Shown: positions 32,435 to 55,585 of the stretch, in pieces
How positions within the stretch are numbered: position 1 is the stretch's first letter
Layout: each line of letters begins with the position of its first letter
Origin: Vicia villosa
Lineage: Eukaryota; Streptophyta; Magnoliopsida; Fabales; Fabaceae
Direction: 5' to 3'
Assembly (NCBI RefSeq): GCF_029867415.1
Contig: NC_081183.1
Coordinates: 56,990,336-57,054,335 of the forward strand
Length of the DNA: 64,000 bases
The notes under the pieces: model-generated
What the model was told of the DNA's origin: nothing
The model's database searches: none
What the model saw: the letters and a program-made list of their open reading frames with translations, nothing else
Made by a program: the position numbers and the translations under genes

Positions 32435-32513
32435 AAAAAAAATAGTTTGGCCCTTGGAGGATTTGAACCCACGCCCTCTAGGCCACACACTCAAAACAAA
32501 CACCACTGAGCCA
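32435..32513 (-). other. tRNA-like module E1 in LTR E
   Basis: In LTR sense: A box TGGCTCAGTGG (32513-32503), B box GGTTCAAATCC (32469-32459), eight T (32442-32435). Element C is inserted 5 bp upstream of the A box. Confidence 0.6.
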
Positions 32514-32518
32514 ACGCG
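32514..32518. repeat. Target site duplication of C, left copy
   Basis: ACGCG immediately left of the LTR of C, identical to 40664-40668. Confidence 0.92.
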
Positions 32519-34319
32519 TGTAACACCCTTCTAAACCCCGCGGCAAATTAAACAAATTTATTCAGAGTACATGAAACAAGGGTGCCACAATTTCAAAATG
32601 AATTAAAACATCATTCAGGCATGTCATGCATTCACTGAGGCAATTCTTATAAATCAAAAACAATTCATGTCAACACAGCGGAAATAGTTCAACAGATTAA
32701 GTTTAACATTTTCAAACCAATCCTTCAACATAAAAACAAACTAGAGTTATCAAAACTTAAACTCTAAACGTTCGCGTCCCCAGTGTTACAACTATCAGAG
32801 CATGACACCTGACGCTAACCAAACAACTGACTCATGAGCTAATCCTCACCAAGTCGAATAGCCGCTATCCTCAATCTGAAAATGACAACATGTAAGGGTG
32901 AGTCTTCATCATAATTAACAAATGTTATAAGGCTATAAGGCAATAACACATCATAGCTGTATTGTTCACCCAATTGTTTCACAAACAGACATTCAGACAA
33001 GTTTTAAAATCACAAAGCAATCAATCAACATCATCAATATTTATAACACTGGAATGCATCCAATCATGTTATAAAAGTCATGCATATGAATGCAACTGAC
33101 ACTATGCATGTGGTACCAACATCATCAAATGGGAATAACCCATGACCGATCCAACATCATCAAGATACGGCCCTACCGGCACAGATTCCACACAATGGGA
33201 ATCATGCCCTTCACTGATCCAACACACCCTTATGGATACAATATCACCAATGAACATGAATGAATGCAAACATATATGAACATACTTATACCATCGTCAA
33301 GTCTATGAGTAACATCGTCAAATACCCATTTCATCATAATCATCATCATCATCAAGCATGTTTACATATATATGCATCATTCAATCACAATCACATCATT
33401 AATCATCACATAGATTATTTAATAAGGTTCGTTTAGCTCAAAACGGCACGCGAAATGGACCAACGGATCAAAAGTTATGCATTTTACAAAATTCAGCATT
33501 TTTCAAAAACCTTCAGTGGTAATCGGTTACCCAAAGGCCAGTAACCGATTACCCTGACTCACGAAACACATCCCCCTGGTTTTTGTATGGGTAATCGGTT
33601 ACCCTGCTTTAAGTAACCGATTACCGACTCCCAGCCAGCAATATTTCCCTTTTTACACTGCAGTAATCGGTTACCCTGCTCCCAGTAACCGGTTACTGCG
33701 TACCTGCAACCCCAAATTCTGCAGAAAACAGCATCCCAACCATTCCCAACTCATTCCAATTACACCAATTTGAATAATAGGAAATGAAATGCACACATAC
33801 CACGAAATACACATCACAATGCATCAATTACACATCAAACAAAGCCATGATCACACGATATCATAGATTTCATACACAAGATCAATTATCATACAATTTG
33901 ATTCAATCCCTAAACCTATCATATGACTCAATTGACCCGAATCCTACATCTATTCAATATTATTAACCCCTAACCCGATAATAGATGATAATCAGAGAAG
34001 TCCCCCCTTACCTTAGTCAAATCCTTGAGTGGGTCTTCTCCCTCTTGGTTCTCTTTCACGTTCTTCAGCTCCTCTTCTCATAACTTCTTGTTTTTCACGT
34101 TCTAACTCTTTTTCCTCTTGTTTTTCCTTATTTCATGAAAACATAAAATTAGAGATGGGCTCCCTTACACTTACACCCCCATATTACTAATCCCACCATA
34201 AGGCCCAACAACTTAACATTTTATATTTCTTTCCACATAATTCCAATAAAATGCTAATCCAAACTAATTAATTTAAAATTAAATTAAACTAATTAAATTA
34301 GAAATTTTGGGATGTTACA
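32519..34319 (-). repeat. 3' LTR of C
   Basis: 1801 bp, near-identical to 38863-40663. In sense it begins TGTAACATCCCAAAATTTC and ends GGGTGTTACA. It contains the three-hairpin GGTAATCGGTTACC array at 33518-33698. A 60-codon frame inside it is not a gene. Confidence 0.95.
33518..33698. repeat. GGTAATCGGTTACC paired-motif array (LTR copy 1)
   Basis: Six copies of GGTAATCGGTTACC or its complement form GTAACCGATTACC, in three pairs (33518/33541, 33590/33612, 33663/33684). Each pair can fold as a 12-13 bp stem with a loop of about 9 nt. The same array is at 39862-40042. Confidence 0.9.
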
Positions 34320-34331
34320 ACTCTCCCCCAC
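34320..34331 (-). other. Polypurine tract of C
   Basis: In sense, GTGGGGGAGAGT ends directly at the 3' LTR start (34319), as expected for the plus-strand primer. Confidence 0.8.
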
Positions 34332-34361
34332 TAAAAGAGTTTTCGTCCTCGAAAACATACC

Positions 34362-35717
34362 TCAAGCAAAGAGTTCCGGATAGGAATCTTTCATCTGGCT
34401 TTCCAACTCCCAGGTGACATTCCCCTCAGCCGGTCCTCCCCAAGCTACTCTAACCAAGGCTATTTCCTTGCCACGCAACTGTTTCAGCTTCCGATCTTCA
34501 ATCCTTACAGGTAAGGTTTCAACGGTCAAGTTATCTTTCACCTGCACATCATCTACTTGAATCACATGGGATGGATCCGCAACGTACTTCCTCAATTGTG
34601 ATACATAAAATACGTCATGCAAATTTGCAAGCATTGGCGGCAAAGCAATATGATAAGCTACTTCTCCCACTTTTTCGGAAACTTGGAAAGGTCCAATAAA
34701 ACGCGGAGTCAACTTCTTCGACTTCAACGCCCTACCAATTCCTGTCATAGGAGTAACTCTCATAAACACATGGTCTCCCTCTTGAAACTCAAGTGTTTTC
34801 CTCCTCTTGTCAAGGTAACTCTTTTGACGACTCTGAGACGCTTTCATCTTCTCTTGAATCATCTTAATCTTTTCCGTAGTTTGTTGTACAATTTCCGGTC
34901 CAATCACAACACTCTCACCGGACTCATACCAACATAAAGGCGTCCTACACCTCCGACCATACAAAGCTTCAAACGGAGCCATACCGATACTCGAATGAAA
35001 ACTGTTGTTGTAGGTAAACTCAATCAAAGGCAGATAACTATCCCAAGCACCTCCTTTTTCTAGTACACAAGCACGTAACAAATCTTCTAACGACTGAATT
35101 GTCCTCTCAGTCTGTCCATCTGTCTGCGGATGATAAGCAGAACTCAATCTCAGCTTAGTACCCAAAGCCTTCTGCAAACCTTCCCATAACTTCGACGTGA
35201 ATCTCGGATCTCTGTCTGACACGATACTCGAAGGAATACCATGTAGGCTAACTATCTTCTCAATATACAATTGAGCCAACTTTTCCATCGGATAATCCAT
35301 CCTCACTGGTATGAAATGTGCAGACTTCGTCAACCTGTCCACAACAACCCAGATAGCTTCACAATTCTTAACGGTCCTCGGTAACCCAGAAACAAAATCC
35401 ATTGATATGCTATCCCACTTCCACTCGGGAATAAACATCGGTTGCATGAATCCATATGGCTTCTGATGTTCAACCTTTGACTTCTGACACGTCAAACAAG
35501 AGAATACAAATTCAGCAATTTCCTTCTTCATTCCAGGCCACCAAAACAGCTTTTTCAAATCATGATACATCTTGGTAGCACCAGTATGAATACTCAATCC
35601 ACTACGGTGTCCTTCTTCTAGAATACTCTTCCGGAGTTCAGCAAGATCAGGAACACAAACCCTGTCTCCAAACCTCAATATACCATTCTCGTCAACTCTG
35701 AATTCACCTCCTTTACC
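34362..35717 (-). pseudogene. pol: Chromovirus C integrase with chromodomain-like tail
   Basis: In frame with the RT segment but separated from it by a TAA stop at 35720-35718. Zinc region: GHRSGLSIHTGATKMYHDLKK and FSCLTC, a HHCC-type motif. Core: MDFVSGLP with first Asp, IVSDRDPRF with second Asp, HPQTDGQTER with the Glu. GPFQVSEKVGEVAYHIALPP follows. The tail RGKEIALVRVAWGG...TWELESQMKDSYPELF matches the chromodomain-like end of Tekay integrases, thought to guide insertion into heterochromatin. All DDE residues are present. The stop is the only obvious defect in this part. Confidence 0.9.
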
Positions 35718-37195
35718 TTAATTAATCGAAGTCAACTTATCGATCAACTCAACATCAGCTTTTTGACCCTCTCTGATCTCTTCAAGAATACCACTGGTCA
35801 GCTTCAGCATACCCAATTTAATACTAGTAGTAGTACCTTCGCATACCAAACTCAAATCTCGGAATTGTTCAATTAAATCCAATTCTCTAACCATTAGCAT
35901 AGACATATGCAAAGTTTTCCTGCTCAATGCGTCAGCAACTACGTTTGCCTTACCAGGATGGTAATTCAAACCAAAATCATAGTCCTTCAAGAATTCTAAC
36001 CACCTCCTCTGTCTCATATTCAGCTCTTTCTGGTCAAAGAGATACTTCAGGCTCTTGTGGTCACTGAACACCTCGAACCTCGAACCATACAAATAATGTC
36101 GCCACAATTTCAAGACAAAAACCATAGCTGCCAGCTCTAAATCATGAGTCGGATAATTCCTTTCATGCACCTTAAGTTGTCTCGAAGCATATGCGACCAC
36201 TTGTTGATTCTGCATCAGTACACCACCTAAACCCATCAGCGAAGCATCGCAATAAACAACAAAGGATTCTGCCGGATTCGGCAAAATTAAGATAGGAGCA
36301 CTTGTCAGCCTCTTCTTCAACGCTTGGAGTCCCTCTTCGCATTTTGCATCCCAGATAAAAGTCTGACCCTTCCTGGTCAATTTAGTTAACGGCAATGCTA
36401 ACTTTGAAAAGTCTTCTATAAACTTTCTGTAGTAACCTGCAAGACCAAGAAAACTACGAATTTCCGACACTGATTTCGGAGCTTCCCACTGAGATACCGC
36501 TTCTATCTTCGTAGGATCAACAACAATACCATTCTTAGAAATCACATGTCCAAGGAAACTAACCTCATTCAACCAAAATTCGCACTTTGACAATTTTGCG
36601 AAAAGTTTCTTCTCCTTCAATAATTCTAACACAGTTCTGAGATGTTCTGCATGCTCTTCTTCGTTCTTGGAGTATATCAAAATATCATCTATAAATACTA
36701 CCACAAATTTATCAAGATAAGGATGGAAGATTCTATTCATGTACTCCATAAAAACACCAGGTGCATTCGTAACTCCAAATGGCATCACCGAATATTCATA
36801 ATGCCCATACCTTGTTCTAAACGCCGTCTTCTGAATGTCATCTTCTTTCACTCGAATCTGGTGATATCCAGACCTCAAATCAATTTTACTAAACACGCAA
36901 GCTCCAACCAACGGATCCATCAAGTCATCAATCCTCGGCAACGGATACTGATTCTTGATAGTAACTTTGTTTAATTGTCGGTAGTCTACAGATAGTCTCA
37001 TAGAACCCTCTTTCTTCTTTACCAACAATACCGGTGCACCCCACGGAGAAACACTCGGACGAATGAATTTCTTCTCAAGCAACTCCTCTAATTGCTTCTT
37101 CAACTCGGCCAACTCTGATGGTGACATACGATATGGTGCCATCGACACTGGACTAGTTCCCGGAATCAATTCGATAGTAACTCTACTTCTCTTTC
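35718..37195 (-). pseudogene. pol: Chromovirus C reverse transcriptase and RNase H
   Basis: Open from about 37190 to the TAA at 35718. [22 protein letters not shown], then [15 protein letters not shown] and [10 protein letters not shown] with both catalytic Asp. RNase [18 protein letters not shown] and [20 protein letters not shown], then [10 protein letters not shown]. It is out of frame with gag-pro because one base is missing near 37190 (between EREVE and the IPGTSP motif). The terminal stop probably arose from CAA to TAA. Confidence 0.92.
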
Positions 37196-38728
37196 CGGTG
37201 GTAAGTCATTCACATCTTCAGGAAAAACTTCCGGAAATTCACACACTACTGGTAATTCACTACGCACCACCTTCTCTTTCAGGTCCATCATTGCGAACAA
37301 CATGAACACTGCCGCACCGTCCTTAATGGCTTCTTTCACTTGTCTAGCCGTCATGTTCAGATCATCAGTATTAACAGCTTCGGGAAAGATTACCGTCTTC
37401 GTAAAACAGTTTATATGAACACGGTTGAATTCCAACCAGTTCATTCCCAGGATGACATCGAGTTGTTTCAATGGAAGACACACTAAGTCCATTCCAAATT
37501 CTCTACCAAAAACATCAACAGGACAATTCAAACAAGCAGATGAAGTAGTTACTGAACCCGACGCAGGAGTGTCAATAACCATGCTTCCATTTATTTCAGA
37601 TATTTCTAAATTCAACCTTTTAGCGCAATCCAAGGAAATAAAAGAATGAGTTGCTTCAGTATCAATAATTGCAACCAAAGGTGTGCCATGAATGAAACAC
37701 GTACCTTTAATTAATCTATCCTCTGGAGTAGTCTCTGTCCCAGTCAAGGCAAAAACTTTTCCTCCAGCTTGATTCTTCTTCGGTTTAGGACACTGTGGGC
37801 TAATGTGGCCCTCTTCACCACAATTGTAACAAGTCACAGTCTTCTTCTTACAATCAGCGGCAACATGACCCACCTCTTCACACTTGAAGCACTTCTTCTG
37901 GTTCAGCTTGCACTCATTCCTACAGCGACCGACCTCACCATAGGTATAGCACCTGACAAAAGCACTGGAGTCTCCCCCACTAGGCCTCTTCCAACCACCA
38001 ATCTTTGGATTACCTCTACCATACGGTTTTCCTTTTTCCATAGGCCTCTTACCCTTCCTGTCAACTAACTCGCGAGAGTGAGATGACTTCAGCTTAAGGT
38101 TATCTTCTTCAAAGATCCTGCTACAGTCTACCAAATCAACAAATCTCCGAATCCTCTGGTACCTGATTCCCTGCTTAATCTCATTACGGAGACCGTTCTC
38201 AAATTTGATGCACTTCGAGAATTCACTAGCTTCATCATTGTTGTAGTGAACGTAGTACTTGGCCAACTCAACAAACTTCAAAGCATATTCTGGCACTGTC
38301 ATATTACCTTGAACCAACTCCAGAAATTCAATTTCCTTTCGGCCTCGCACGTCCTCAGGAAAGTACCTTCTCAAAAACTCTCTTTTGAACACAGGCCAAG
38401 AAATACCCACATCATCAGCCTCTAGTTCAGCTCTGGTCGCCATCCACCAGTCATCAGCTTCTTCGGATAACATATGCGTACCATACCTCACCTTCAGATT
38501 TTCAGCACAATCAATGACTCTGAAAATCCGTTCGATCTCTTTCAGCCACTTCTGAGCACCTTCAGGATCATGCGTACCCTTGAACAACGGAGGATTGTTC
38601 CTCTGAAAATTCCCCAGTTGCCTGTCAGCACCGATCCCTGCCCCTCCAGCATTTCCTCCCAGCACACCAGCAATCATGCCCAGAGCCTCAGCGATAGCAT
38701 CATCGTTTCTTCCTCCTCTTCCAGCCAT
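37166..38728 (-). pseudogene. gag-pro: Chromovirus C Gag-protease
   Basis: 520-residue frame from MAGRGGRNDD. Gag domain at about 50-200 (PLFKGTHDPEGAQKWLKEIE). Two good zinc knuckles near 280-315 (CFKCEEVGHVAADC and CYNCGEEGHISPQC) follow a degenerate first one (CYTYGEVGRCRNEC). In the protease the active site reads IIDTEATHSFIS: Asp 356 and Thr are kept but the invariant Gly is Glu (residue 358, codon 37657-37655, GGA to GAA type change), which should abolish activity. The frame ends at 37166 because of a 1-nt deletion near 37190. Confidence 0.9.
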
Positions 38729-38846
38729 TGCTCTTCTTAAATCACAATTAATTTAATTCAGAACAAAAGTAACGACAAGTCAGTTAGTACGAGTCGCATA
38801 CACAGGAAAGACAGACACTAAGACTCTGGTCACAACGACCGACTAT

Positions 38847-38858
38847 GCTCTGATTCCA
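38847..38858 (-). other. Primer binding site of C
   Basis: In sense, TGGAATCAGAGC four bases after the 5' LTR. It differs by one base from TGGTATCAGAGC, the usual initiator-Met tRNA primer site. Confidence 0.85.
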
Positions 38859-38862
38859 CTAT

Positions 38863-40663
38863 TGTAACACCCTTCTAAACCCCGCGGCAAATTAAACAAA
38901 TTTATTCAGAGTACATGAAACAAGGGTGCCACAATTTCAAAATGAATTAAAACATCATTCAGGCATGTCATGCATTCACTGAGGCAATTCTTATAAATCA
39001 AAAACAATTCATGTCAACACAGCGGAAATAGTTCAACAGATTAAGTTTAACATTTTCAAACCAATCCTTCAACATAAAAACAAACTAGAGTTATCAAAAC
39101 TTAAACTCTAAACGTTCGCGTCCCCAGTGTTACAACTATCAGAGCATGACACCTGACGCTAACCAAACAACTGACTCATGAGCTAATCCTCACCGAGTCG
39201 AATAGCCGCTATCCTCAATCTGAAAATGACAACATGTAAGGGTGAGTCTTCATCATAATTAACAAATGTTATAAGGCTATAAGGCAATAACACATCATAG
39301 CTGTATTGTTCACCCAATTGTTTCACAAACAGACATTCAGACAAGTTTTAAAATCACAAAGCAATCAATCAACATCATCAATATTTATAACACTGGAATG
39401 CATCCAATCATGTTATAAAAGTCATGCATATGAATGCAACTGACACTATGCATGTGGTACCAACATCATCAAATGGGAATAACCCATGACCGATCCAACA
39501 TCATCAAGATACGGCCCTACCGGCACAGATTCCACACAATGGGAATCATGCCCTTCACTGATCCAACACACCCTTATGGATACAGTATCACCAATGAACA
39601 TGAATGAATGCAAACATATATGAACATACTTATACCATCGTCAAGTCTATGAGTAACATCGTCAAATACCCATTTCATCATAATCATCATCATCATCAAG
39701 CATGTTTACATATATATGCATCATTCAATCACAATCACATCATTAATCATCACATAGATTATTTAATAAGGTTCGTTTAGCTCAAAACGGCACGCGAAAC
39801 GGACCAACGGATCAAAAGTCATGCATTTTACAAAATTCAGCATTTTTCAAAAACCTTCAGTGGTAATCGGTTACCCAAAGGCCAGTAACCGGTTACCCTG
39901 ACTCACGAAACACATCCCCCTGGTTTTTGTATGGGTAATCGGTTACCCTGCTTTCAGTAACCGATTACCGACTCCCAGCCAGCAATATTTCCCTTTTTAC
40001 ACTGCAGTAATCGGTTACCCTGCTCCCAGTAACCGGTTACTGCGTACCTGCAACCCCAAATTCTGCAGAAAACAGCATCCCAACCATTCCCAACTCATTC
40101 CAATTACACCAATTTGAATAATAGGAAATGAAATGCACACATACCACGAAATACACATCACAATGCATCAATTACACATCAAACAAAGCCATGATCACAC
40201 GATATCATAGATTTCATACACAAGATCAATTATCATACAATTTGATTCAATCCCTAAACCAATCATATGACTCAATTGACCCGAATCCTACATCTATTCA
40301 ATATTATTAACCCCTAACCCGATAATAGATGATAATCAGAGAAGTCCCCCCATACCTTAGTCAAATCCTTGAGTGGGTCTTCTCCCTCTTGGTTCTCTTT
40401 CACGTTCTTCAGCTCCTCTTCTCACAACTTCTTGTTTTTCACGTTCTAACTCTTTTTCCTCTTGTTTTTCCTTATTTCATGAAAACATAAAATTAGAGAT
40501 GGGCTCCCTTACACTTACACCCCCATATTACTAATCCCACCATAAGGCCCAACAACTTAACATTTTATATTTCTTTCCACATAATTCCAATAAAATGCTA
40601 ATCCAAATTAATTAATTTAAAATTAAATTAAACTAATTAAATTAGAAATTTTGGGATGTTACA
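38863..40663 (-). repeat. 5' LTR of C
   Basis: 1801 bp, ends ...ATGTTACA at 40663 (sense start) and TGTAACACCC at 38863. It carries the second copy of the paired-motif array at 39862-40042, with one motif reading GTAACCGGTTACC instead of GTAACCGATTACC. Confidence 0.95.
39862..40042. repeat. GGTAATCGGTTACC paired-motif array (LTR copy 2)
   Basis: Same three motif pairs as in the other LTR of C, offset by 6344 bp. In sense this lies about 620-800 nt from the LTR start. Confidence 0.9.
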
Positions 40664-40668
40664 ACGCG
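40664..40668. repeat. Target site duplication of C, right copy
   Basis: ACGCG directly after the LTR end ACA at 40663. Confidence 0.92.
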
Positions 40669-40737
40669 CGTGTGGTGATAGCAAACTGGCTTCAAGGCAA
40701 TTCATATATTGCTCAAGTGTATAGGAGCAAAAAGAAA

Positions 40738-40835
40738 ATAAAATCAAAAGGTCTGAGGCGAGGGGGATTCGAACCCCAGACCTTGGGCATGAGGAGACTA
40801 AGAGCGCATGTGAGGCCACTAGGGCAAACGATGAA
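40738..40835 (-). other. tRNA-like module E2 in LTR E
   Basis: In LTR sense: A-box-like TGCCCTAGTGG (40826-40816), perfect B box GGTTCGAATCC (40775-40765) inside a T-arm-like GGGGTTCGAATCCCC, then TTTT runs (40750-40738). An 8-bp inverted repeat AAGGTCTG/CAGACCTT (40748-40755, 40777-40784) encloses the B box and ends at the T-run. I do not call it a tRNA gene: acceptor and anticodon arms are not convincing. Confidence 0.6.
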
Positions 40836-43329
40836 TTCGTTTGTAAAACACAAACCATTCAAAATAAAATAAACTTGGCCCTCAGATTTGAAATTTGCGC
40901 GCCACCACCATTGTCATCTTCTTCCTCAAGCTCCAACAATTTGAATTTCTGAACTCTCTCAATTCTCAACCATTTGCAACGGTATAAAGACCAAACTTGC
41001 TCTAAATTCCCTCACGATTCTAGATATGTAACTATTATGAATTTATATTAACTATATCTACTGAATTATCTAAAATACGTGAAGAACCCTAAAATTTGGA
41101 ATTCAAATTAAATGACTATACTGAAGCATAAATGACTGATGATAGAGGGTTTTTAATCCTCTTATGATGCTGAATAGAATGGTGTTGAGTTTTAGCCAGA
41201 AAGATACACGAATCAAAGAGGTGGAGTTGAGAAACTTACCTCTGAAAATGAAGGTCGTGAGGATGTTAGAGAGCACCTGGGCTTGTATGAATGATCCCAA
41301 AAGCTTCCTTGTGACTCAGTGATGCTAACTGGATGTTTATTGTAACTTCAATTCTCCTGAATTGCTCTATGGACCTCCCTCGATTTGAGCTTCAAGTGAA
41401 CATGGAGAGTGATGATTCTTGAGTTACAGACGAGCTGCAACCATCTGGATAGCTCCACTACCTTCTATGGAACGTGCCTGGATGCTTGGCTTTGTTGGAA
41501 ACCTTCTGAATTGCTCTATGGACCTCCAACTGCAACAGCTTCAAAGTGAGAGCAACAATGGCGTTCCTCCACTTACAGAAGTGATCCAGGTGCTTGGATC
41601 ACCTCAAATGAACCTCTTTGAGATGTTAGAATGCTTGCTTTCCAAAAATAAGCTCTGGTTTGAAGAAAACGATTCTTCTTGCCAAAGAACTTTGAAAAAC
41701 AATAAGCATGAGAAGAGAAAGAGAAAGCAAGGAATATGGTTGCTTTGGTGTGTTTTTCTACTGAGGTATGCTCTCCTATTTATAGGCAAATGATTCAATA
41801 CTGATTGAGAGAGTGAGCTTGCTTAGTGAAGTGAATTTGGTTTCTTAGCCATGAAGAAATTTCAAAGAATATCCAAGTGTGATCATTGCATTTTCGAGCC
41901 AGCTCCCTATCCATTGATTCTATCTGATCTTAGGGAACATTTCAGATACAAAGTGAGCTCTAATTGGTTGGTGAGAAGATTCCTTGGGTGATTCATCAAT
42001 TGGCCATAAATTCTCAAATGTAATCATTACATAATCACATGTTCTTGTTTTAGGAATCTTCCTCAATTATCATGGCATGGTGAAAATTAATGCATGGCAT
42101 GTTTTCAGATGTGTTATGGGTCGTGTAGCATCCATAATTGAGGTCATGTGCTTAAAATTGCAAAGTTAAAAAATGATGCATGACCTATAATTTCACTTCA
42201 TGAGGCCAACTTTGAACAAGCATAACTCCTAGCTCAAAATGAATTTGGAGAAGGTTGAACACAATTTGGAAAGCCCTAAACATCTACTTCAAATCATTAG
42301 TTTGGAGTTTCTTCAGAATCCTTTGGCAAATTTGTGAAAAATGAGGCCAAAGTTGGAAGAAAACTAGGTTAAAACACTTAGAAAATTTTCTAAGTGTTTA
42401 TGACTAAAACTTCAAAATTTCCAAAACTCTTAAATGATTGATCTTTTGAAAAAAGTTCCATTGTAAGATGTTGTTTTATTTTGCAAGATCTACAACTTTC
42501 ATGTTGGAAGTTTTTTGAGTTGTGTAGGTGAAATTTTGAGTTCCCACAATGCCCTCGAAAACCCTAATTCCCGACTTTTTGCTCCTTGAAGATTCTTCTT
42601 GAATTTCTTTGGTCAAATGACTTTAATATCCATATATTGATGATATTGATCCTTGAAAGTCATGGTTTGACCAAAAATCTTAAAAGTCAAAGGTGATCCC
42701 ATACAGTTGACTTTTTCCAGATAAGGTGAGATTTGGACTTTTGTGTAGAATCAAGATCTTCTCCTCAAATGAGTTATGTAAATGGGTTATATTGAGGTGG
42801 TAAAAGTTCTTGAATCATGTCTTGAGTTTTGGATCCATGCCTCTGATTAAAAGTCAACTATCCTGGTGAATTAGGTCAAAAACCCTAATTGTCGACAGAT
42901 GAAAATGATGACTGTAGACTTTGAATTGAGGTGTAATGTCCAGTGGATCTTGTTATATGAGCTATTTGAATATGATAGATGTCTTTGAATGATCCCCTGG
43001 GGCTTTTTAGGGTTTCCCAAAGGTGATCCCTGATTTTAGTCCTCGATAGGCTCAAAACCCTAGTCTGGTGACCTGAGTAAATCTGTATTCAGAGGATTGG
43101 GTATCTAATCAATCATAGGTGAGAAAATGAAGCTCTTGAGTCCTATGATTATGTTAGAGACTAATCCCTCTATTGATTGATCCTTTGCCTGAGTTTTCTT
43201 GTCTTTGAACATCCTTGATTAAATGCCAGATGAAGAAGTGACTGCTTTGGGCACTAGTTTTGACCTGATGAAAATCCTGAAGATATGTCATCTCAGGGGG
43301 GTCAAAAATTAGGGTATGACAGATGCCCC

Positions 43330-43402
43330 TATTTAAGTTTCTTTTATCTGGAGGGAGAGAGATTGATATCTCGATCTCTCCTGCGTGAAAGAGACTTAAA
43401 TA
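43330..43402 (-). repeat. Large hairpin next to the E polypurine tract
   Basis: ATTTAAGTTTCTTT-type arm (43330-43344) pairs with 43388-43402 over 15 positions, including one G-T wobble. An inner stem GAGAGAT (43357-43363) pairs with ATCTCTC (43374-43380). Confidence 0.85.
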
Positions 43403-43691
43403 TCAAAGAATGCCCGAATTTTAGGCGCTCCTGAGATGTTGTAATTGACAAAATCCTTGCATGACTTGATCCCGTTGTCGCACTTGGCGGGGGATGAGGA
43501 GACAAACTCCTGTAGAAATACTTGATGTGGACTCTGGTAAATGGATGGCAGTGTAGGATGCGCAATCCATCTTCTTAACTAAGTGTTGACACTTAGAAAA
43601 AGGTAAACAACCTCTCCCTTGTTTCGGATGTCCATATCTCGAAAATGGTCTCAGTCATGTTTGGACAATATCTCAGATAAAGAGAAAAATC

Positions 43692-43999
43692 TCCAAAGAT
43701 TTGTTTCCTCATCAAACTTCTCATCAGCACTTGGAGATGAGATGCCATTTGATGGTAGTAGAGAAACTTCAAAGGTTTGTTTCCTCATCAAACTTCTCAT
43801 CAGCACTTGGAGATGAGACGCCATTTGATGGTAGTAGAGAAACTTCAAAGGTTTGTTTCCTCATCAAACTTCTCATCAGCACTTGGAGATGAGACGCCAT
43901 TTGATGGTAGTAAAGAAACTTCAAAGGTTTGTTTCCTCATCAAACTTCTCATCAGCACTTGGAGATGAGACGCCATTTGATGGTAGTAGAGAAACTTCA
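43692..43999 (-). repeat. 76-bp tandem repeat, four copies
   Basis: Four nearly identical 76-bp units. Each folds as a two-tier hairpin: CATCAAA (43710-43716 in unit 1) with TTTGATG (43748-43754), and inside CTCATC (43720-43725) with GATGAG (43736-43741). The core CAAACT...CGCCATTTG is shared with the following array. Repeated 60-65 codon frames here are by-products. Confidence 0.92.
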
Positions 44000-44085
44000 C
44001 CATCTTTCCTTTTGACTTGACGTCTTGAAAGAATGTCATATGGCCTCATGATCTTTTGAGGGGCTAATGACTTTGCTTGAAAGCG

Positions 44086-44956
44086 GACGAACTGTTTTCG
44101 GGGTGAAAACCGCCATTCGTCGACTTACGCCAGGGAATCAACAAACTGTTTTCCCAAGAGGAAAAACTGCCATTTGTCGACTCATGCCGGGGAATCAACA
44201 AACTGTTTTTCTTAAGAGGAAAACTGCCATTTGTCGACTCTGAGGGGAATTAACAAACTGTTTTCCTAGGAGGAAAACTGCCATTTGTCAACTCTGAAGG
44301 GGATGAAACATCCCAGAAACAGACAAACTGTTTGAAGAAACTGCCATTCGTCGATTTCTTGAGTATTTAACAGACAAACTGTCTTTCCTTGGGGAAAGAC
44401 TGCCATTTGCCAATTGCTAGGGGAACAAACTGTCTTCTACTAGGAGAGACTGCCATTTGTTGATCCTGTCGTGAAAGAGAGTGAGCAAACTGTCTTCTGC
44501 TAAAAGAGACTTCCATTTGCTGACTTTGTTGAGGAATCCTTAAGCGAAACGAACTGTCTTCATGAAGAAGGCTGCCATTCATTATTTTTGTCTGAAAAAG
44601 TGAGTGAACTGTCTTCTGCTGAAAGAGACTGCCATTCACTGACTTCGCTGGGGATCATTCGTCGATCTGTTGGGGAGATTCCCAATTATTTCTTTGGCGA
44701 AGAGTGGCATCTCTTGACCCTGCTGGGGAAATACCAAACTGTTTTCCAGGAGGAAAAGCTAACACTTGTCAATTATGTCAGGGAATCCACACTACTTGGA
44801 GAAGAGAACCGCTCATCGACCCTGTAGGGAATTCCAAAATGCGAAATAGACTATCTTATTTGAAGAAGATTGTCGAGCGTCGCTCTGCAGGAGATTCTCA
44901 ATTGGGGAATTCCAAAAGTGAACAAACTATCTCTTTGAGGGAGACTACCATTTGTT
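44086..44956 (-). repeat. Array of covarying two-tier hairpins
   Basis: About eleven to thirteen degenerate units of 40-90 bp sharing CTGTYTTC and ACTGCCA. Outer arms differ between units yet stay complementary: GACGAA/TTCGTC (44086, 44116), ACAAA/TTTGT (44141, 44198, 44253), AACAAA/TTTGTT (44424 and 44921), AGCAAA/TTTGCT (44484), AGTGAA/TTCACT (44603). Inner arms also change together, such as TTTTCC/GGAAAA and TCTTTCC/GGAAAGA. Units near 44650-44800 are decayed. Confidence 0.88.
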
Positions 44957-45791
44957 GACTTGCTTGGGGAATTTGGGTGTATGAACCTTCTTTATGAAGA
45001 AGAAAACCCTTTCACATCTTTGCAGGGGAGTCTTGAGTATATGCTTTAATGACTCGGGCATTCTCATGATCAAAGCCTGACTCGACTATGCAGTTATAAT
45101 GTATGCATGAATATTATGACAAATATAAAATGTAAAGTGAAAGTGAATAGAATTGTCGCGGATGTAAAATCTATGATACGACTTGAATCTTGTTGATCAG
45201 AAGATGTCTTCTTCTTGTAGTTCGAACTCTATCGGGAATACCTGGTTATCAGTTGTCCGCTGTCCGAAGTGAGTGATATGAATTGAAGTGAAGATCTGTC
45301 ATCGGGAGATGTTCGCAAAGCGACCTCATGGGGAAATCTTGGTTCCCGGAGTCTCAACCGTTCTCGGAGTAGCTGTTTGCATTCTTCCTATTGTTTGTAA
45401 ACCTCAGAAAGAAATTTCACCTTTATTTTTTTGCAAGTAAATTCATTTTATTTTATGAAAACATTTGTTTCAAGAAAATGACTGTTTAAACTTAAAATGC
45501 ATTTCAAGAAACTAAATAAGACTCGATTTGCAAAGAAAGGCACAAGGCTCAAATTATTATATATGGAATGGTAATCCGCCAAATGCTTGATTCCATGGAG
45601 TATTTACAAAGTTGGAAATTGGTAATTTTTCAGGAAAAGGGCTACGATGAAACGTGACGACCGTTATCTTTCCCTTCCACTCCGAGTTGCGCTCTATTCG
45701 TGCTTCGTAGAAGATGACCTAATGCTGATGAATACTCCGCTATGGATTTTTGAATGATCAAGTTTGTCCTGAACACAGTTACTTGCCATAT

Positions 45792-48700
45792 TGTCGCGGG
45801 CGAAAAATCGTTTTTGTTTCCTCTTTTTGTGGATGAGACACCTGATGCCTTCTTTGGGCTCGAGTGCTCATAAAAATGATTTTTCTTTTGTTTCGACCAA
45901 ACTTTTTATTATTTCCAAAGAAGGAAAAGGAAAAAAGCTGCAATAACCTAAAAGTGGGGGAGAGATTCCGGGTAAGAGGGTTGGTTATACGAAGGGAAGG
46001 TATTAGCACCCAACGTATCTATAGTACTCTATAGGTTTCTTTGTTTTGTTTATTCCATTCTTGTTGTGGTGGAGGTTCTTGTGAAATAGGTGGGACCTAA
46101 GGTGTTTGTTTGATTATGCTCGCAAAGATCATCGCGATCCTCTGCATACATATCCCCTAGAGGGAATCAGAGCATCTGTAGCTCGGGGTCTACGGGTGCT
46201 AAGGTTTGAATGATTTTTTTTGTTTTGTTTTGCTCGCCAAGGATCGACCTTGTGCCTACGTATTCTCAAAGGGATGTTGAGAAAGTCAGAGCAATCGTAG
46301 TTCCCACTTATGCTAGTGGAAGCAAAGAAAAATAGACAAATGTCGTCTAAATGCTAGATGTATCTAATCTATATCATCACATACATCTGTTTGATTTGTT
46401 TGAAAATCTTTTCATTATAAGCCCGGGGCCATGCCACTTAGGGTGCTTAGAATGATAAAGATGTTTTTGTTGTTTAACCAGCCTTGTGGCAAAAGTTTTA
46501 ATGAAGTCAGCCTTGTGACAAAAACTTTGATTAATCAGCCAGCCTTGTGGCAAAAGTTTCAATGAAGTCAGCCTTGTGACAAAAACTTTGATTAATCATC
46601 CAGTATGGTGGTAAAACAGTTTGATTAATTAGCCAGCCTTGTGGCAAAAAGAAAGTTGGATTGATTAGCCAGCCTTGTGGCAAAAAAGTTTGATTGATTG
46701 ATTGATTGTTTGTGATGATATAAAAGAGATACTCCTAGCATAGAGATGAAAAATGTCTAATCTCCTAGGGTATTTGATTTGGATATTGGGGATGCTTATA
46801 AGAAGCCCGTGGGTCCTTGTACGAAGCCCAAGAGGAGGCTATCCGAGGGTCCTTGCATTGTAAGCCCAAGAGGAGGCTATGGGAGGGACAATCCAGGGTC
46901 CTTGCATTGTAAGCCCAAGAGGAGGCTATGGGAGGGTCACTCGTTTGTACAAAGCCCAAGGGGAGGCATGGTATAGTTGGTTTGAGCTCTTAGAGCGATT
47001 TCACCGGGAAACCATACTCTATGTCCTAACCTAAACTAGTGGAGATTCTTTGCACGAAGCCCAATAGGAGGCTATGGGGAACCTAGTGTTGTACTAAGTT
47101 GAACAAGCATATAACATAATCACAAATGTGAACAAGTACAAACAAATATGCACAAGTACATGAACATATATGAACAGTTATACATATATGACAAAGTGTG
47201 TGTATATAATGGAGTTTATGAAGGAAATATACCTGTAAGCATGATCCATTTGTATACACAGGGCTCGGGACTCACACTCGGGGAGAGGTCCATTTGAATT
47301 TATTCAAAGCTATGTAAACAGGTATTTACAAAAGGGCTTGGGACTTATACCTACATGGAGGCCCATGGTATATTTTTGGGAAGATTTAAAGAAACCTTCG
47401 TTTTTGGTTTGTTATTCAAAGTTAAAAATCAGATTGATCGAGATATGTACAAAAAGGCGTACGATGAAATACCTAATTTCATGTACTGGAATGGGTATGT
47501 ACAAAAGGGGCTTGGGACTTATACCTACATGGAGGCCCGTGTTTTATTTACAAAACATGGTTGATCGTTTTATTTACAGTCGCGTTGTTTGAAAAACGGT
47601 TTGAAAGTTTGTTCTGAAAGAAAGTTTATTTATTTTGAATAAAAAGACTGTGTAAAAAGAAAAAGGAGTGGGTCTTATACTCTCTAATATTCGAGAGGCC
47701 CCACATCGTTTTGAAAATCAATTGATTAATTAAAAGATTTAATCAAAAGTTTCAAAAAGAAATGGTTCATTGTTTTTGAAAAGAACCGCGATCGCTCGTT
47801 TTAAAACGATTTGAATTTTGAAAGAAGTCAATTTAATCAAAAGATCATCCTCAATTAACACTTAGATGATTAGGGTTTGTTCAAAAAATATTTACAAGTG
47901 ATTTAAGTTTAAAGATTAAGTGAAAAACAATATTTAAAAGTATTAGAAAACACTTAAAAATATGTTATTTTAAACTTAATTAAAAATGTATTAAACAAAT
48001 ATATTTTTGTGATTTTTTTTTATATTCATAAAATACATATATAAAATAATAAGTGTGTAAAAAATGAAGAAAAAATAAGTTAAATTGAATGGTTAAATTA
48101 ATGGTTGAAGTTGTGTAAAAAATCAAAGAAAATAGGTGATAAAAAGAAGGGTTTGGTCCCATAGGGACTTGAACTCGTGACCTTGAGGTCACTACTCAAA
48201 ACAAAAGCCAACTGAGCCACGCTCGTGGCTTGTTAGTAATACGCGCTGGGTACAATATATTTTCAAACTGAATTTTAAAACTCATGAACCAAAAAACGCG
48301 CCAAGAACACAATCCCATTTTGAATTTGAATTTTCTGAAAACTGAACCAAATTGATCAAGTGAAGGGTCTAACTCACTCGTTTTTTCATAAGGATCATGA
48401 TGGTGCCCTCATAATTCATTTATTTTTGCTCTAAGGTGATCAATTTTCTGATGAACACGAAGAACCCTAATTCTGAGATTGATCATGAAATCGTGTATGA
48501 TTGATGAATTGTGAAATTGATTGAGGGTTAATGATCAGTGATAGTGCAGAAACAAGATAGCAACTCAATTTTTCATTTATGATGCATGCATGTATGAGTT
48601 TGAAGTTCAAGTAGCTTACCTTCAAAAACGGCCAAACTGGAAATTGAAATCGTGCCTGGAGGTGTTACAGATGTTGTTTCTTGATCTGGACAGCATCAAT

Positions 48701-50757
48701 GGACCTTATGGAACATGTTTGAATGCTTGGAACAGTTTGAATTCACCTGAGCTAAGCTATGGAACCTGAACTGCAGTTGCTTCAAGTATGAATCGAATTT
48801 GAAGATGGAGATGTTACAGGTCATATGTGAGTGTTTGGATCATTCATATGAAGTATATGGAAGGTGTTGGAAGTGTTATTTTGGACAGAAATGATCTTGA
48901 ATGGATTTTGGCATGATAAGGCTTAGATTATGCATATTTGAGAAGTGAGGTAGTGATTTTGAGTTTGAGATGTTTTTGGAGTGTGTGAGTGGATCAAACA
49001 CATCCCATATGATGTTTGTGGTTTGTGGGAAGCATCACTTTGGTCAGAAATTCAAAGGTTTAGAGGTTGAGCATTTTACCTCTTTGAAACTTAAGAAACT
49101 TGCATTCTAAGAAAGAAAGAGAAAGCCTATAATTTGTGTGACTTTGGTGTGATTTTGAATGGAGTTTGGACCTCTATTTATAGGCCAAAGAGTCTGAACT
49201 CAGAGCTTTGCAACTTGATCAAAGTTTGATGATTTGGCTTAAGAGATAAAAAGGAATCTTTTACATTTAATGCAAAATGGTTAAAGTGACCAAACCATGG
49301 TTAAACTTCAAGCTTCTTATCCTCTTCCATTCTGATCTTCTAATCAGAAAATATCTTCAATTATTGTCTTGATGCATCATTACTTGCATTATTTGGCAAT
49401 TTGGTTCATAACTTTGCAAAAATGGCTTGAAATTTCAAGTGAAATGGTCACTAATGTCAAAATTCAAAACCATAGCTACACTCCATATTTTTTCATGCTC
49501 TTGGACATTTTGGAAAGCTCATGTTACATACTTCAAAACTCTAGTTGAAAGTTTCTTCAAGATCTTTAAGGAAGTGAGTGAAAAAGATCCATGAACTTTG
49601 AGAAAAATGAAGTTTCAAGTGAATTTTTCAAAAGATGCCAACTTTGAAGCTCCATATCTCTTAAATGGTTGATCTTATGGAAAAAATTTATATGTGTCAA
49701 AGTTGTTTATTGGATCAAAATCTACAACTTTCATGTTGGAAGTTTTTTTCAGTTTGTAGGTGAAATTTTGAGAAATTCCCTTTCAAAGTTTGGAAAAAAC
49801 CATGAAAAAACACTTAGAAATTTTTCTAAGTATGGAAAGTCAAACTTTTGACTTTTTGATTCTTGATTGATTTTCTTGATTTTTCTTGATCAAATGACTT
49901 CTCATATCATATATTGATGATTTAAAACTTCAAAAGTCATGGTTGACCAAAATTCCCCAAAAGTCAATGGTGATCTTGTACAGTTGACTTTTTCAGACGA
50001 ATCGCGTTTCTGGAGATTTCAAATGAAACAGGCTATCCTCATCAAATGAATAGTATGAATGGATCACATTGAAGCATTAGAGGATATTGAGCCATGGTTT
50101 GAGTTGTGACACCATGTCCTGATTAAAAAGTCAGTTGTTCAGTGAATTAGGTCAAAAAACCCTAATTGTCGACCTGATGAAATTGATGACTGTAGGTCTT
50201 GAATTGAGATGCAATTTCCATGGGATATTGTCATAGGGATTATTTGAGGATGATTGAAACCTTTGATTGACTTCCTGGGGGTTTTTATGGTTTCCCAAAT
50301 GTGATCCCTGATTTCAGTCCCTGATAGTTCAAAACCCTGATCTGAGGATTTGTCTGATCAATCTTTGTGTAGGAGATGTTCTGAGCCAATGGATTAGGTC
50401 AAAGTGATGTACTTGGGGTCTTGAGGTCATGTCCCAAGCCATTAGGTCAAATTCTTAGCAAAAGTCAGGAGTATGCTGTCTTCAGTCAAAACCCTAATTC
50501 AGTCGATTCAAAGCTGTTGAGTTTGTTGAAGTGAATCTCTGAGGACCAAATGTTGATTGTTGATGAAGATAGTTCTTTTGAGATGAAGGGAGAACAAAAC
50601 CCTAATTGATTGTTACTTGTACTGATGAGTGATTTCCTGATTAAATCCTGCTGAGTCACAAGTAACAAACACAAGCTATGCAGTTTGTTAGAGATGCAAA
50701 TGATGCATATGCAGATGATATGAGGTGGTATCTTAGGTCAAAAATTGGGGTATGACA
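45792..50757 (-). repeat. 3' LTR of Ogre B (4966 bp)
   Basis: TGTCATACCCCAATTTTTG at 50757 (sense start) to CGCCCGCGACA at 45792. It is homologous to LTR A from end to end with scattered substitutions and small indels. The same phrase arrays appear at 46478-46690 and 46795-47075, and the tRNA-like module at 48141-48222. No genes; several 60-80 codon frames appear at equivalent places in A and B simply because the LTRs are related. Confidence 0.93.
48141..48222 (-). other. tRNA-like module in LTR B
   Basis: In LTR sense: A box TGGCTCAGTTGGC (48219-48207), B-box-like GAGTTCAAGTCCC (48176-48164), T-run of five (48145-48141). Its place in the LTR matches the module of LTR A. Confidence 0.55.
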
Positions 50758-50947: not shown

Positions 50948-53900
50948 TTAGGCGAAGTATTTCTTGACTGCGTCGACGTTCACAGGACGGTTGAATTCTT
51001 CTCCATCCATAGTCGTGAGTATTAAGGCTCCTCCTGAGAAAGCTCTCTTGACCACGTAGGGGCCGTCATAATTGGGAGTCCATTTCCCTCTTGAATCTGT
51101 GAGAAAAGATTGAATCTTTTTGAGTACAAGGTCGCCTTCTTTGATTGTGAGAGGTCGAACCTTTTTGTCGAAAGCTTTCTTCATTCTTTGTTGATATAGC
51201 TGACCGTGGCATAAAGCTGTCATGCGCTTTTCTTCGATTAAGTTCAATTCATCGAATCTGCTTTGACACCACTCGGCTTCTGTTAATTTTGCTTCCATCA
51301 AGACTCTCATCGATGGAATCTCAACCTCTATAGGTAGGACTGCCTCCATGCCATATACAAGGGAGAAAGGAGTTGCTCCAGTCAAAGTACGCACTGATGT
51401 ACGATAACCATGAAGAGCATACGGGAGCATTTCATGCCAATCTTTGTAAGTGATGACCATCTTCTGAACGGTTTTCTTGATGTTTTTGTTAGCTGCTTCT
51501 ACAGCTCCATTCATCTTTGGTCTGTAAGGAGATGTGTTGTGATGTTCAATCTTGAATTCTTCACAAAGTTCCTTCATCATTTTGTTATTCAAATTTGACC
51601 CATTGTCAGTGATTATTTTGCTAGGAATGCCGTAGCGACAGATGATGTGATTCTTGATAAACCTGACGACAACTTGTCTTGTAACGTTTGCATATGAAGC
51701 TGCTTCAACCCATTTGGTGAAATAGTCTATAGCTACCAAGATGAAGCGATGTTCGTTGGACGCTTTTGGCTCGATCATTCCAATCATGTCGATTTCCCAC
51801 ATGGAGAAAGGCCAAGGGGAAGAGAGTATGTTGAGAAGAGATGGTGGCACATGAATTCTATCGGCGTAGATCTGACATTTGTGACACCTCTTTGCGTACT
51901 GGTAGCAATCTGACTCCATCGTCAGCCAATAATATCCTGCTCTCAGTATTTTCCTTGTCATGGTATGCCCATTGGTGTGAGTACCAAAGGAACCTTCATG
52001 TATTTCTCTCATGAGTACTTCTGCTTCTTTTCTGTCAACGCATCTGAGCAGAACCATGTCGAAGTTTCTCTTGTACAAAACATCTTCATTCAGAAAGAAT
52101 CTACAAGCTAACTTTCTCAAAGTCTTTCTATCTTTCTTTGACGCCCCAAGAGGGTACTCTTGCTTTTGAAGAAAGTTCTTGATGTCGTGATACCACGGTT
52201 TGTCGTCGATGATTGCTTCTACTGTGAAAACATGAGCGGGCCTATCCAGGCGCATAACATCGATCCGAGGAATGTCATTCCAATGATTTATCCTAATCAT
52301 GGAAGAGAGTGTGGCTAATGCATCAGCCAATTTGTTTTCTTCACGAGGAATGTGATGAAAATCTACCCTGTCGAAGAATGGTAACAATCTTCTCGCGTAG
52401 TCTTTGTAAGGAATTAGCCCTGGTTGGCGTGTTTCCCATTCTCCTTTGATTTGATTGATGACCAAAGCAGAATCTCCATATACATCCAAGTGTTTGATTC
52501 TTAGATCCACGGCTTCTTCGAGACCCATGATGCAAGCTTCATATTCGGCCTCATTGTTTATGCACTTGAAAGTTAATCTGGTAGTAAATGGAATATGGGT
52601 ACCCTGAGGTGTAACAATGATTGCCCCAATTCCTCGTCCATAAGCATTGATAGCTCCGTCAAAGATTAAGCCCCATTGGGATCCTATCTCAGGTCCTTCG
52701 TCTGGTAGTGGCTCGTCGTAATCTTTCATCTTGAGGTACATGACGTCCTCGTCCGGAAAGTCGAAACTGGTTGATTCATGACCATTGAGTGGGTGGTGAG
52801 CCAGGTGCTCAGCTAGAATGCTTCCTTTCACGGCTTTCTGTGCGTGATACTCAATGTCATATTCTGATAACAACATCTGCCAACGGGCAATTCTCCCAGT
52901 TAAGGCAGGCTTCTCAAAGATGTACTTGATTGGATCCATATGAGAGATCAAACAAGTAGTATGTCGAATCATGTACTGGCGGAGACGCTTGGCAGCCCAG
53001 GCCAAAGCACAACACGTTTTCTCGAGCATGGAGTAGCGGGATTCACAGTCAGTGAATTTCTTGCTTAGGTAGTAAATGGCACGCTCTTTTCTTCTCGTAT
53101 CGTCTTGCTGTCCAAGGACACAACCCATGGAATCTTCTAAGACGGTTAAGTACATTACCAAAGGTCTTCCTTCCACTGGAGGAGACAAGATGGGTGGTTC
53201 GAGCAGATATTCCTTAATGTTGTCAAACGCTTTCTGACAATCGTCTGTCCAGACGTAACTTTGATTTTTCCGTAGAAGTTTGAAAATAGGAGCGCAAGTT
53301 GCAGTCATGAGATATATGAATCTCGAGATGTAATTCAGACGTCCAAGAAATCCTCTAACTTGTTTCTCGGTTCTGGGTGAAGGCATTTCTTGAATTTCCT
53401 TGACTTTGTCTGGATCTACTTCAATTCCTCGTTTGCTGACGATGAAACTAAGGAGTTTTCCTGAGTAGACACCAAAGGTGCACTTGTTGGGGTTCAGGCG
53501 AAGCTAAAACTTCCGTAAGTGTTGAAATAACTTTGTCAGATTTTGTATGTGATCTTCTTCATTTTCTGATTTGGCAATCATGTCGTCCACATAGACTTCC
53601 ACTTCTTTATGCATCATGTCGTGGAAAAGCGTAGTCATGGCCCTTTGATAAGTTGCCCCTGCGTTCTTTAGTCCAAAAGGCATAACACGATAGTAGAACG
53701 TGCCCCAGGGGGTGATGAAAGCTGTTTTCTCCATGTCTTCAGGTGCCATTTTGATTTGGTTGTATCCCGAAAATCCGTCCATGAATGAGAAAACTTTGGA
53801 TTTTGCTGTACTGTCTACTAACATATCAATTTGTGGTAAAGGAAAATCATCCTTAGGGCTAGCTTTGTTCAAATCTCTGTAGTCGACGCACATGCGGACT

Positions 53901-54413
53901 TTTCCGTCTTTCTTAGGAACGGGAACAATGTTAGCTAACCACTGAGGGTATTCTGAAGTGACGAGGAAACCTGCGTTGATCTGCTTTTGAACTTCCTCTT
54001 TGATTTTCATGGCCATCTCCTGATGAGTTCTTCTCAATTTTTGTTTGACCGGAGGGCATTCTGCTTTTAATGGCAATTGATGCTCCACTATACTGGTATC
54101 CAACCCTGGCATATCTTGATAAGACCAAGCGAAGACATCTGAGAATTATTTGAGCAGTTGTATCAAACTCTCTCTGATCTCTGAACTGAGCGAAGCTCCA
54201 ATCTTAACCTCTCTTCTGTTTCCATCGGAACCAAGGTTAATGATCTCTAGAGGCTCATTGTATGGCTGAATGGCCTCTTCCTTTTGTTGAAGTAATCGTG
54301 AAATTTCCTTTGATATTTCTTCGTCTTCTTCTTCCTCTGCCTCGAATACAGGAAACTCAAAGCTTGGAGAAGTCATACGGTCGCACGTTTCAACGGGGTA
54401 TTTTATGATTAAT
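50948..54413 (-). pseudogene. pol: Ogre B pol: RT, RNase H, second RNase H, integrase
   Basis: Begins at the intron acceptor (54413), with an acidic linker after TSPSFEFPVFEAEEEE. RT has VRMCVDYRDLNKASPKDDF and YVDDM at 53579-53593. RNase H lies around 53200-52750 (FTDCESRYSMLEKTCCALAW shortened). The extra Tat RNase H has GLIFDGAINAYG and YGDSALVINQIKGEWET. Integrase has a HHCC region (THTNGHTMTRKI...CHKCQ), DDE residues in WEIDMIG, IITDNGSN and GAVEAANKN, then a C-terminal GPYVVKRAF domain ending at 50948. Two in-frame stops interrupt it: 54148-54146 (TAA, probably from Glu GAA) and 53506-53504 (TAG, probably from Gln CAG). No frameshift was seen. Confidence 0.92.
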
Positions 54414-55146: not shown

Positions 55147-55530
55147 AGCAGGTCGACCTACTATGCACACAGGTCGACTCAACACAAGCAAAATAAGAGG
55201 AACTCAGAAAATCAGCAGTTAGGTCGACCTACTCCCAACACAGGTCGACCTAAAATGAAGAAATTTACATATTATTCTGCTAGGTCGACCTACACAACAA
55301 CTAGGTCGACCTAATCTGAGAAAATTTCCCCAAAACGCATCTGAAGTGGATTCTGGTCGACCTACCTCTTTGACAGGTCGACCTAACTGGGAACAAATGA
55401 CATCCAAAAGATATGCAGCTCTGTTAGGTCGACCCAGCCCTAAATTAGGTCGACCCATCTGATCAAAACTGACTTCCAAAGGATATGCAGCTCTGTTAGG
55501 TCTACCCAGCCCTAAATTAGGTCGACCTAT
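55147..55530. repeat. TAGGTCGACCTA paired-palindrome array
   Basis: Twelve copies (some degenerate, such as AGGTCGACCCA or AGGTCTACCCA) arranged as six pairs with 19-24 bp between starts: 55148/55172, 55221/55241, 55281/55301, 55354/55375, 55423/55446, 55497/55516. The last two units are about 74-bp tandem copies. The array lies just upstream of the LTR TATA box. Confidence 0.9.
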
Positions 55531-55585
55531 CTGATCAAAACTGTCAAAATTTCTGGTTTTCTCTGCATCAACTGAAAAGCTCTCA

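Follow-up and report, generated by a model that had tools for sequence, protein, structure and literature searches.

The window analysed here, a 64,000-nucleotide stretch of the Vicia villosa genome (NC_081183.1, positions 56,990,336 to 57,054,335), contains an Ogre retrotransposon of the Ty3 group, element E, whose 3′ untranslated region (UTR) carries an array of hairpins at 43711-44956, between the integrase and the 3′ long terminal repeat (LTR). Read in the sense of the element, each unit consists of an outer arm, UGGCR, an inner arm, a loop, the partner of the inner arm, AG and the partner of the outer arm. The arms change together, the joint is nearly constant, and this combination suggests that the folded RNA itself works in the life cycle of the element. 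The array is a genuine feature of the sense RNA in this Ogre lineage and is probably under selection for folding. We put the probability that it is an array of stem-joint-stem RNA modules, kept foldable by selection on the sense RNA, at about 0.6.

Hairpins with co-changing arms in the window

A scan with the strict form of this grammar found 14 hairpins on the minus strand and none on the plus strand, whereas block-shuffled versions of the minus strand (20 in all) yielded 0-2 apiece, and a covariance model found 16 hairpins in the array, all on the minus strand (Table 1). The initial annotation had described units with a shared core and flanks that change on both sides together. The arms that it quoted are present, both the outer ones (GACGAA/TTCGTC, AACAAA/TTTGTT, AGCAAA/TTTGCT and AGTGAA/TTCACT; coordinates in Table 1) and the inner ones (TTTTCC/GGAAAA, e.g. 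at 44252-44289, and TCTTTCC/GGAAAGA at 44373-44411), and they do change together; the constant part, however, is the UGGCR/AG joint, and the relevant strand is the minus strand. The quoted arms are perfect partners, as stated there, but several pairs in the array are G·U and the hairpin at 44733-44770 has an outer mismatch. Hairpins occupy the interval first proposed for the array (44086-44956), but the array continues beyond it into a 76-bp tandem array (43694-43999), directly downstream in the sense direction, which has the identical grammar and different arms (CATCAAA-UGGCR-UCUCAUC-loop-GAUGAGA-AG-UUUGAUG). By eye, the stretches at ~44840-44890 and 44980-45005 also look like badly decayed units.

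Among the 14 distinct units of the window, 93.3% of 179 cells were paired (shuffles 80.0 ± 1.6; reached by 0 of 500). Both sides had changed in 28 cells, compared with 9.5 ± 3.2 in shuffles, and in 10 of 13 pairs, a count reached by 1 of 500 shuffles. Of the five measures, one was not above shuffles: 99 of 500 reached the observed number of pair types. These figures bear on one alternative, that degenerate direct repeats of common ancestry merely appear paired. Related units do inflate simple shuffles, and the strict tree-aware null described below was passed only in part. Yet pairing fell to 36.7-57.1% when the partner arm was slid by 1-3 columns, single pair positions show differing standard pair types (e.g. 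AU, GC and UA), and the 76-bp units carry different arms on the same joint. We therefore consider chance pairing very improbable.

Covariation across the genome

Scans of the 2.03-Gb genome that contains the window gave 435 matches to the hairpin pattern, versus 58 for a reversed control. We retrieved the sequence surrounding close copies (20 stretches) and hairpins from other subfamilies (12 stretches), and picked units by sequence alone (AATGGNR, then AGTT), so that pairing was unused beyond those letters. The 447 units from 33 sources reduced to 209 distinct cores, and to 207 after removal of two with a short inner part; a few chance matches are included. Since AA, UGG, AG and UU are set by the search pattern, their invariance in these pattern-picked alignments is no evidence.

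At outer pairs 3-6 of the 207 distinct units, 785 of 828 cells were paired, whereas the largest value in 1000 shuffles was 647; the covariation that had been proposed thus exceeds a shuffled null, and a comparable pattern is present in other Ogre copies and subfamilies of the same genome. The 828 cells comprise 683 Watson-Crick pairs, 102 G·U, 17 A·C and 26 others. When each distinct arm pair was counted once, 185 of 216 were paired (shuffles ≤163), with 40 G·U and 10 A·C. Homologous 76-bp units carry either UCUCAUC/GAUGAGA or UCUUACC/GGUAAGA under an unchanged apical loop, which amounts to two compensated pairs. A model alignment of 11 further, diverged loci, which includes 150 of 222 matches and is itself fitted to the structure, gave 114 distinct rows. 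Pairing held in 91.5% of its 1475 cells, and in 167 cells both sides had changed (shuffles 53.0 ± 5.8).

Strand bias and tree-aware tests

Read on the sense strand, G·U is tolerated and A·C avoided, as in a selected RNA structure, with the exceptions given below. The 102 G·U against 17 A·C therefore argue for selection on the sense RNA. The initial annotation had offered selection for the folded form in RNA or in single-stranded DNA; the first part is supported, specifically for RNA of the element's sense strand. It had also offered template switching at a fork. Changes made in the DNA itself, in which template switching or conversion rewrites one arm from the other, would account for the many arms that are perfect partners. 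However, DNA hairpins and fork rewriting are both disfavoured because they predict Watson-Crick arms without strand bias, and we give arm rewriting hardly any credence.

A phylogeny-aware null was built in house along the lines of R-scape (60 simulations, 312 distinct aligned units). Structure pairs ranked 1, 2 and 3 among 2080 column pairs, with E-values of 0.017, 0.083 and 3.5. Both partners changed on 20 branches of a tree built from all columns, compared with 8.0 ± 2.7 under the null; a tree without the paired columns gave 39 co-substitutions against 13.2 ± 3.4 (largest null total 27), although real changes are easily scattered when these columns are omitted. At the eight pairs nearest the joint (outer 3-6 and inner 1-4), single departures from Watson-Crick pairing yielded 60 G·U versus 25 A·C on the all-column tree. 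Over all eleven pairs the counts were 66 versus 37, and in the outside columns 7 and 8 they were 5 versus 8. Like kinds of change in the flanks numbered 265 versus 216 (tree without paired columns), and the G·U bias lies above this spectrum both for the single changes (60:25, Fisher p = 0.009) and for the distinct arm pairs (40:10, p = 0.0008).

Evidence against selection on the fold

A number of observations weigh against selection for folding. Under the strict tree-aware null, where rank order strongly favours the structure, only 1 of 2080 column pairs is significant on its own (E < 0.05), and the 20 co-substitutions observed on the all-column tree fall below the highest null total (22 in 2000). 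In the 11-locus alignment, two of five pair measures barely exceeded the shuffles, 32 and 41 out of 500 of which matched them. The flanks already tilt toward G·U-type changes (p = 0.03); every stem-column change, returns included, gives 98 versus 90; and inner pair 5 is reversed (G·U 1, A·C 4; all-column tree). The G·U bias is 43:26 on terminal branches, where neutral decay is expected, and 23:11 on internal ones; it is similar on both, and live lineages are therefore not separated from dead copies. One subfamily retains a C·A mismatch, AGCGAA/UUCACU, in 6 distinct units. The folding energy of the array is moderately below shuffles on both strands (z = −2.9 sense, −2.1 antisense; 20 shuffles each), and Rfam gave no match at threshold in the window; within 43400-45800 there were two sub-threshold matches (19.5 bits versus 70 needed, and 18.2 versus 37). 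Finally, in a comparison of 21 recent copies (the window included, the 76-bp array excluded), variants common to at least two copies occurred in 19 of 238 stem columns and 57 of 644 linker columns, which is no difference (p = 0.79).

Counting all variable columns in the same copies gave 45 of 238 in stems, 181 of 644 in linkers and 25 of 70 in apical loops. A lower variation of stems than of linkers among 20 copies (2.4-2.7% versus 4.8%) was rejected as inflated, the window copy's own changes having been counted many times. Columns of the joint with shared variants numbered 0 of 20 for AG, 4 of 30 for UGG and 5 of 20 for the next two bases; the joint is therefore only partly invariant.

The lack of significant stem conservation among recent copies would fit a different origin, in which the hairpins persist without function: folding templates make reverse transcriptase (RT) jump, folding units are thus duplicated, and pairing is upheld by this duplication bias instead of selection on use. 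Unit numbers do vary among array copies, as such jumping would produce, and it acts on the sense RNA, so that G·U would be tolerated here too. What it leaves unexplained is a constant joint under changing arms, and the compensated changes in homologous 76-bp units that share an apical loop. We judge this explanation unlikely.

Linkers resembling the primer tRNA

The linkers between hairpins carry a recurring, degenerate motif, UUCCCCAGCRRAGUC, which resembles the 3′ end of a tRNA. Its clearest occurrences lie within 44522-44971 (Table 1), and local alignment found further, weaker matches within the array. These tRNA-like linkers are an unexpected second layer, new here. The primer-binding site (PBS) behind an E-type LTR, taken from one copy (L017) whose LTR end matches the end of the window E LTR, is TGGCGACTCTGCTGGGGA (complement TCCCCAGCAGAGTCGCCA). 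The PBS behind the A LTR, in sister element A, is TGGCGACTTCACTGGGGG (complement CCCCCAGTGAAGTCGCCA) and differs from that of E. At 21 genome sites the T-arm-like sequence GGGTTCGATCCCCAG is followed by CAGAGTC (12), TGAAGTC (7) or TGGAGTC (2), and the reversed pattern occurs at none; these sites look like tRNA ends. Such ends occur in the genome for both PBS kinds, the A-type PBS differing by its last base. We take them to be candidate tRNA-Arg ends. Four candidate tRNA genes were rejected, as they gave no ARAGORN or Rfam hit and the two that were inspected resemble retroelement sequence. The available text of PMC6317226 lists tRNA-Arg among primers in the non-chromovirus group.

Across 76 linker clusters, the mean score was 14.4 to the first tRNA end (500 shuffles ≤11.7) and 12.7 to the second (shuffles ≤11.1). 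To the complement of the first end it was 8.0, under the shuffle mean of 8.8, and so is not what a Ty3-type bipartite PBS would give. The linkers are thus similar to the primer tRNA at its 3′ end, which makes them complementary to the PBS. PBS-complement motifs were counted as sense/antisense: 9/0 in the array (shuffles 0.17) and 1/0 in the rest of the E 3′ UTR; 8/0 in the E LTR at 29300-31100 (shuffles 0.17) and 0/0 in its other parts; 4/0 in the A 3′ UTR, 1/1 in the A LTR and 0/1 in the A open reading frames (ORFs). Matches of at least 11 of 14 bases in the E 3′ UTR numbered 5 to the E-type complement and 1 to the A-type, and in the A 3′ UTR 2 and 4, respectively, with CCCCAGTGAAG present twice. 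A genome-wide pattern, TTCCCCAGCRRAGTCR, had 5220 matches, and 0 when reversed; among the matches listed there were two main forms, one in arrays and the other at an antisense PBS.

These linkers could also be the point of the array. If they paired with the PBS, they would close the genomic RNA from 5′ to 3′ or mask the PBS, and the hairpins would be spacers exposing them. The linkers match the tRNA end and not its complement, and the motif occurs in sense only in the 3′ UTRs of both E and A and in the E LTR, three settings in all. E and A have different PBSs, and their 3′ UTRs gave the counts of 5 and 1 and of 2 and 4 above. Against this, the linkers match the other tRNA end also, so that the tie to each family's own primer is weak, and A retains E-type motifs. 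The predicted accessibility of CCCC in the array (0.54, 11 sites) is only slightly above that of other C (0.48), and the best of 500 random 26-mers (window part including the array) reaches 14.7. Motif copies inside one array have a common origin and do not count as independent; the three settings are not obviously of common descent. On balance, we find such docking, with hairpins as spacers, quite improbable.

Related hairpins occur outside the array. In the E LTR (30256-31299, minus strand), nine short hairpin-like units surround GGCUUUGUA, seven of them with 5-bp arms; the arms co-change (CCUUG/CAAGG, UCUUG/CAAGA, GCUUG/CAAGC and UUCUG/CAGAA), and PBS-complement motifs are interspersed. The covariance model had no hits in the 3′ UTR of sister family A (L029, left of the window), and the hairpins of A fall outside the UGGCR/AG grammar. 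By eye, the sense strand of that UTR has other hairpins (CUAUCA/UGAUAG and UUAUCA/UGAUAA). It also contains CCCCAGUGAAG as a repeat, twice, in agreement with the complement of the PBS that A itself carries. A broader and rather doubtful proposal is that Ogre RNA carries LTR and 3′ UTR modules, each a covarying hairpin with a copy of the primer-tRNA 3′ end that follows the family's primer, which join the RNA ends or gate primer loading. If true, the modules would be a tRNA-mimic system in a plant retrotransposon.

Possible role and relation to known systems

To return to folding maintained on the sense RNA, the array is most likely a multivalent cis-acting element of the genomic RNA, a function that we infer from sequence. 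A reader, most likely a protein, would recognise the joint (UGGCR/AG between A-U pairs), and ten or more copies of the module could provide avidity. The array might mark unspliced genomic RNA, either for Gag binding and packaging or for export of the intron-keeping form, and the tRNA-like linkers could base-pair with the PBS, which lies at the RNA's opposite end. New units may arise through tandem duplication during reverse transcription, a route proposed for Ogre 3′ UTRs, after which their arms would drift, often via G·U intermediates.

Retroviral packaging signals likewise consist of several stem-loops in genomic RNA, and are bound by Gag in retroviruses, whereas Gag binding is putative here; they usually lie at the 5′ end. 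Retroviral RNA transport elements, likened here by description, are hairpins with internal joints in RNA that leaves the nucleus with its intron; the Ogre array differs in having many short hairpins, and its export role is putative. Pea and Medicago Ogre elements have an intron between gag-pro and pol, according to the available part of PMC6317226. In yeast Ty3, as given in portions of PMC11381356 and PMC4974528, a bipartite PBS ties a 3′-end RNA sequence to the primer tRNA and is proposed to cyclise the RNA. Ogre E shares the link between a 3′-end RNA sequence and the primer tRNA, but the 3′ part of Ty3 binds the tRNA, whereas the linker here reads like the tRNA itself, and its partner would be the PBS.

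Hypervariable tandem repeats in Ogre/Tat 3′ UTRs were reportedly described by Macas in 2009. The accessible text of two papers (PMC7004042, PMC11963269) places variable tandem repeats between pol and the 3′ LTR in Ogre/Tat and Retand elements, and the former describes the Ogre/Tat 3′ UTR repeats as common, fast-changing and satellite-seeding. The repeats of E share this place, the tandem units and their variable number, but differ in that the units form RNA hairpins whose arms covary around a constant joint, with tRNA-like sequence in the linkers. The words 'hairpin' and 'secondary structure' were absent from the main texts of both papers in a word search, and titles and the starts of abstracts, with few subscription papers covered, gave no report of such hairpins or of PBS-complementary repeats in Ogre. 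Covarying hairpins with a constant joint in Ogre 3′ UTR tandem repeats are, against these sources, a new variant on the described repeats. According to the 2025 Retand-lineage paper (PMC11963269, in the text available), it remains unknown how such arrays arose and what they may do; a conserved folded module inside Ogre/Tat 3′ UTR repeats would supply them with a role, and the question could then be tested.

The host element and neighbouring features

Assignment of the array to the 3′ UTR of Ogre E, made in the initial annotation, is borne out by pol domains, by copies with the array behind integrase and by the LTR start. Minus-strand ORFs at 50948-54112 match the Pfam domains RVT_1, RT_RNaseH, RVT_3 and rve. 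Of the 20 array copies that were fetched, 17 contain a pol whose main matches to the ORF at 50948-53386 are 94-97% identical; the remaining 3 had no pol match. Gag-like matches were found in 11 of the 20. The UTR ends in a purine-rich tract, AAATAGGGGCATC, and the LTR begins at ~43321 with TGTCATACCC; the element sense is therefore the minus strand. In the fetched copies the integrase ends ~185-190 bases ahead of the 3′ UTR stretch that matches the window from 45791 downward, and exactly this site is occupied in the window by an A-type Ogre solo LTR, which landed in the E 3′ UTR with a 5-bp target duplication (ATATG). The tandem units of E lie between pol and the 3′ LTR and vary among copies, as hypervariable 3′ UTR repeats do. 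In sister element A, gag and an ORF with DUF7745 were identified, along with a weak match to protease, and the complement expected of the Ogre lineage (gag, protease, RT, two RNase H domains, integrase and an extra ORF ahead of gag) is present when E and A are taken together. The A LTR is ~5 kb and the A PBS lies at 9028-9045, in keeping with the large LTRs and tRNA-type PBS of Ogre.

Table 1. Coordinates of the hairpins, linkers and parts of Ogre E in the window
Feature	Position	Strand	Remarks
Four hairpins of the 76-bp tandem array	43711-43753, 43787-43829, 43863-43905, 43939-43981	minus	grammar and model
Hairpin GACGAA/UUCGUC	44086-44121	minus	grammar and model
Hairpin GACAAA/UUUGUU	44140-44178	minus	outer stem reaching 11 bp with G·U; grammar and model
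Hairpin GACAAA/UUUGUU	44197-44235	minus	grammar and model
Hairpin GACAAA/UUUGUU	44252-44289	minus	top model score; grammar and model
Hairpin GACGAA/UUUGUC	44322-44352	minus	one G·U; grammar and model
Hairpin GGCAAA/UUUGUC	44373-44411	minus	one G·U, 8-bp inner stem; grammar and model
Hairpin AACAAA/UUUGUU	44424-44461	minus	grammar and model
Hairpin AGCAAA/UUUGCU	44484-44521	minus	grammar and model
Hairpin AAUGAA/UUCGUU	44548-44583	minus	one U·G, inner mismatch; model only, missed by strict grammar
Hairpin AGUGAA/UUCACU	44603-44640	minus	grammar and model
Decayed hairpin GACAAG/UUUGGU	44733-44770	minus	one outer mismatch; model only
Hairpin AACAAA/UUUGUU	44921-44956	minus	G·U closing inner stem; grammar and model
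tRNA-3′-end-like, PBS-complementary linkers	44522-44536, 44641-44655, 44716-44730, 44957-44971	minus	
Second set of PBS-complement motifs with short hairpins	30305-31049	minus	inside E LTR
3′ LTR of Ogre E	29291-43321	minus	interrupted by other Ty3 element at ~32519-40665
E 3′ UTR downstream of solo-LTR insertion	43322-45791	minus	ends in purine-rich tract, then LTR
Solo LTR, A-type, within E 3′ UTR	45792-50757	minus	ATATG at either flank
pol of Ogre E	50948-54112	minus	RT 53504-54112; two RNase H domains and integrase 50948-53386

At another locus (L014, C1:119786001-119796000), two arrays of the same type lie ~4.1 kb apart in the same orientation, each behind a piece of integrase, and are probably a local duplication. 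A 72-bp tandem repeat rich in GGTCGACC lies at 55355-55543, near the point where E appears to break off inside its gag region. The minus-strand ORF at 25572-26699 matches Pfam Transposase_32 (putative plant transposon protein).
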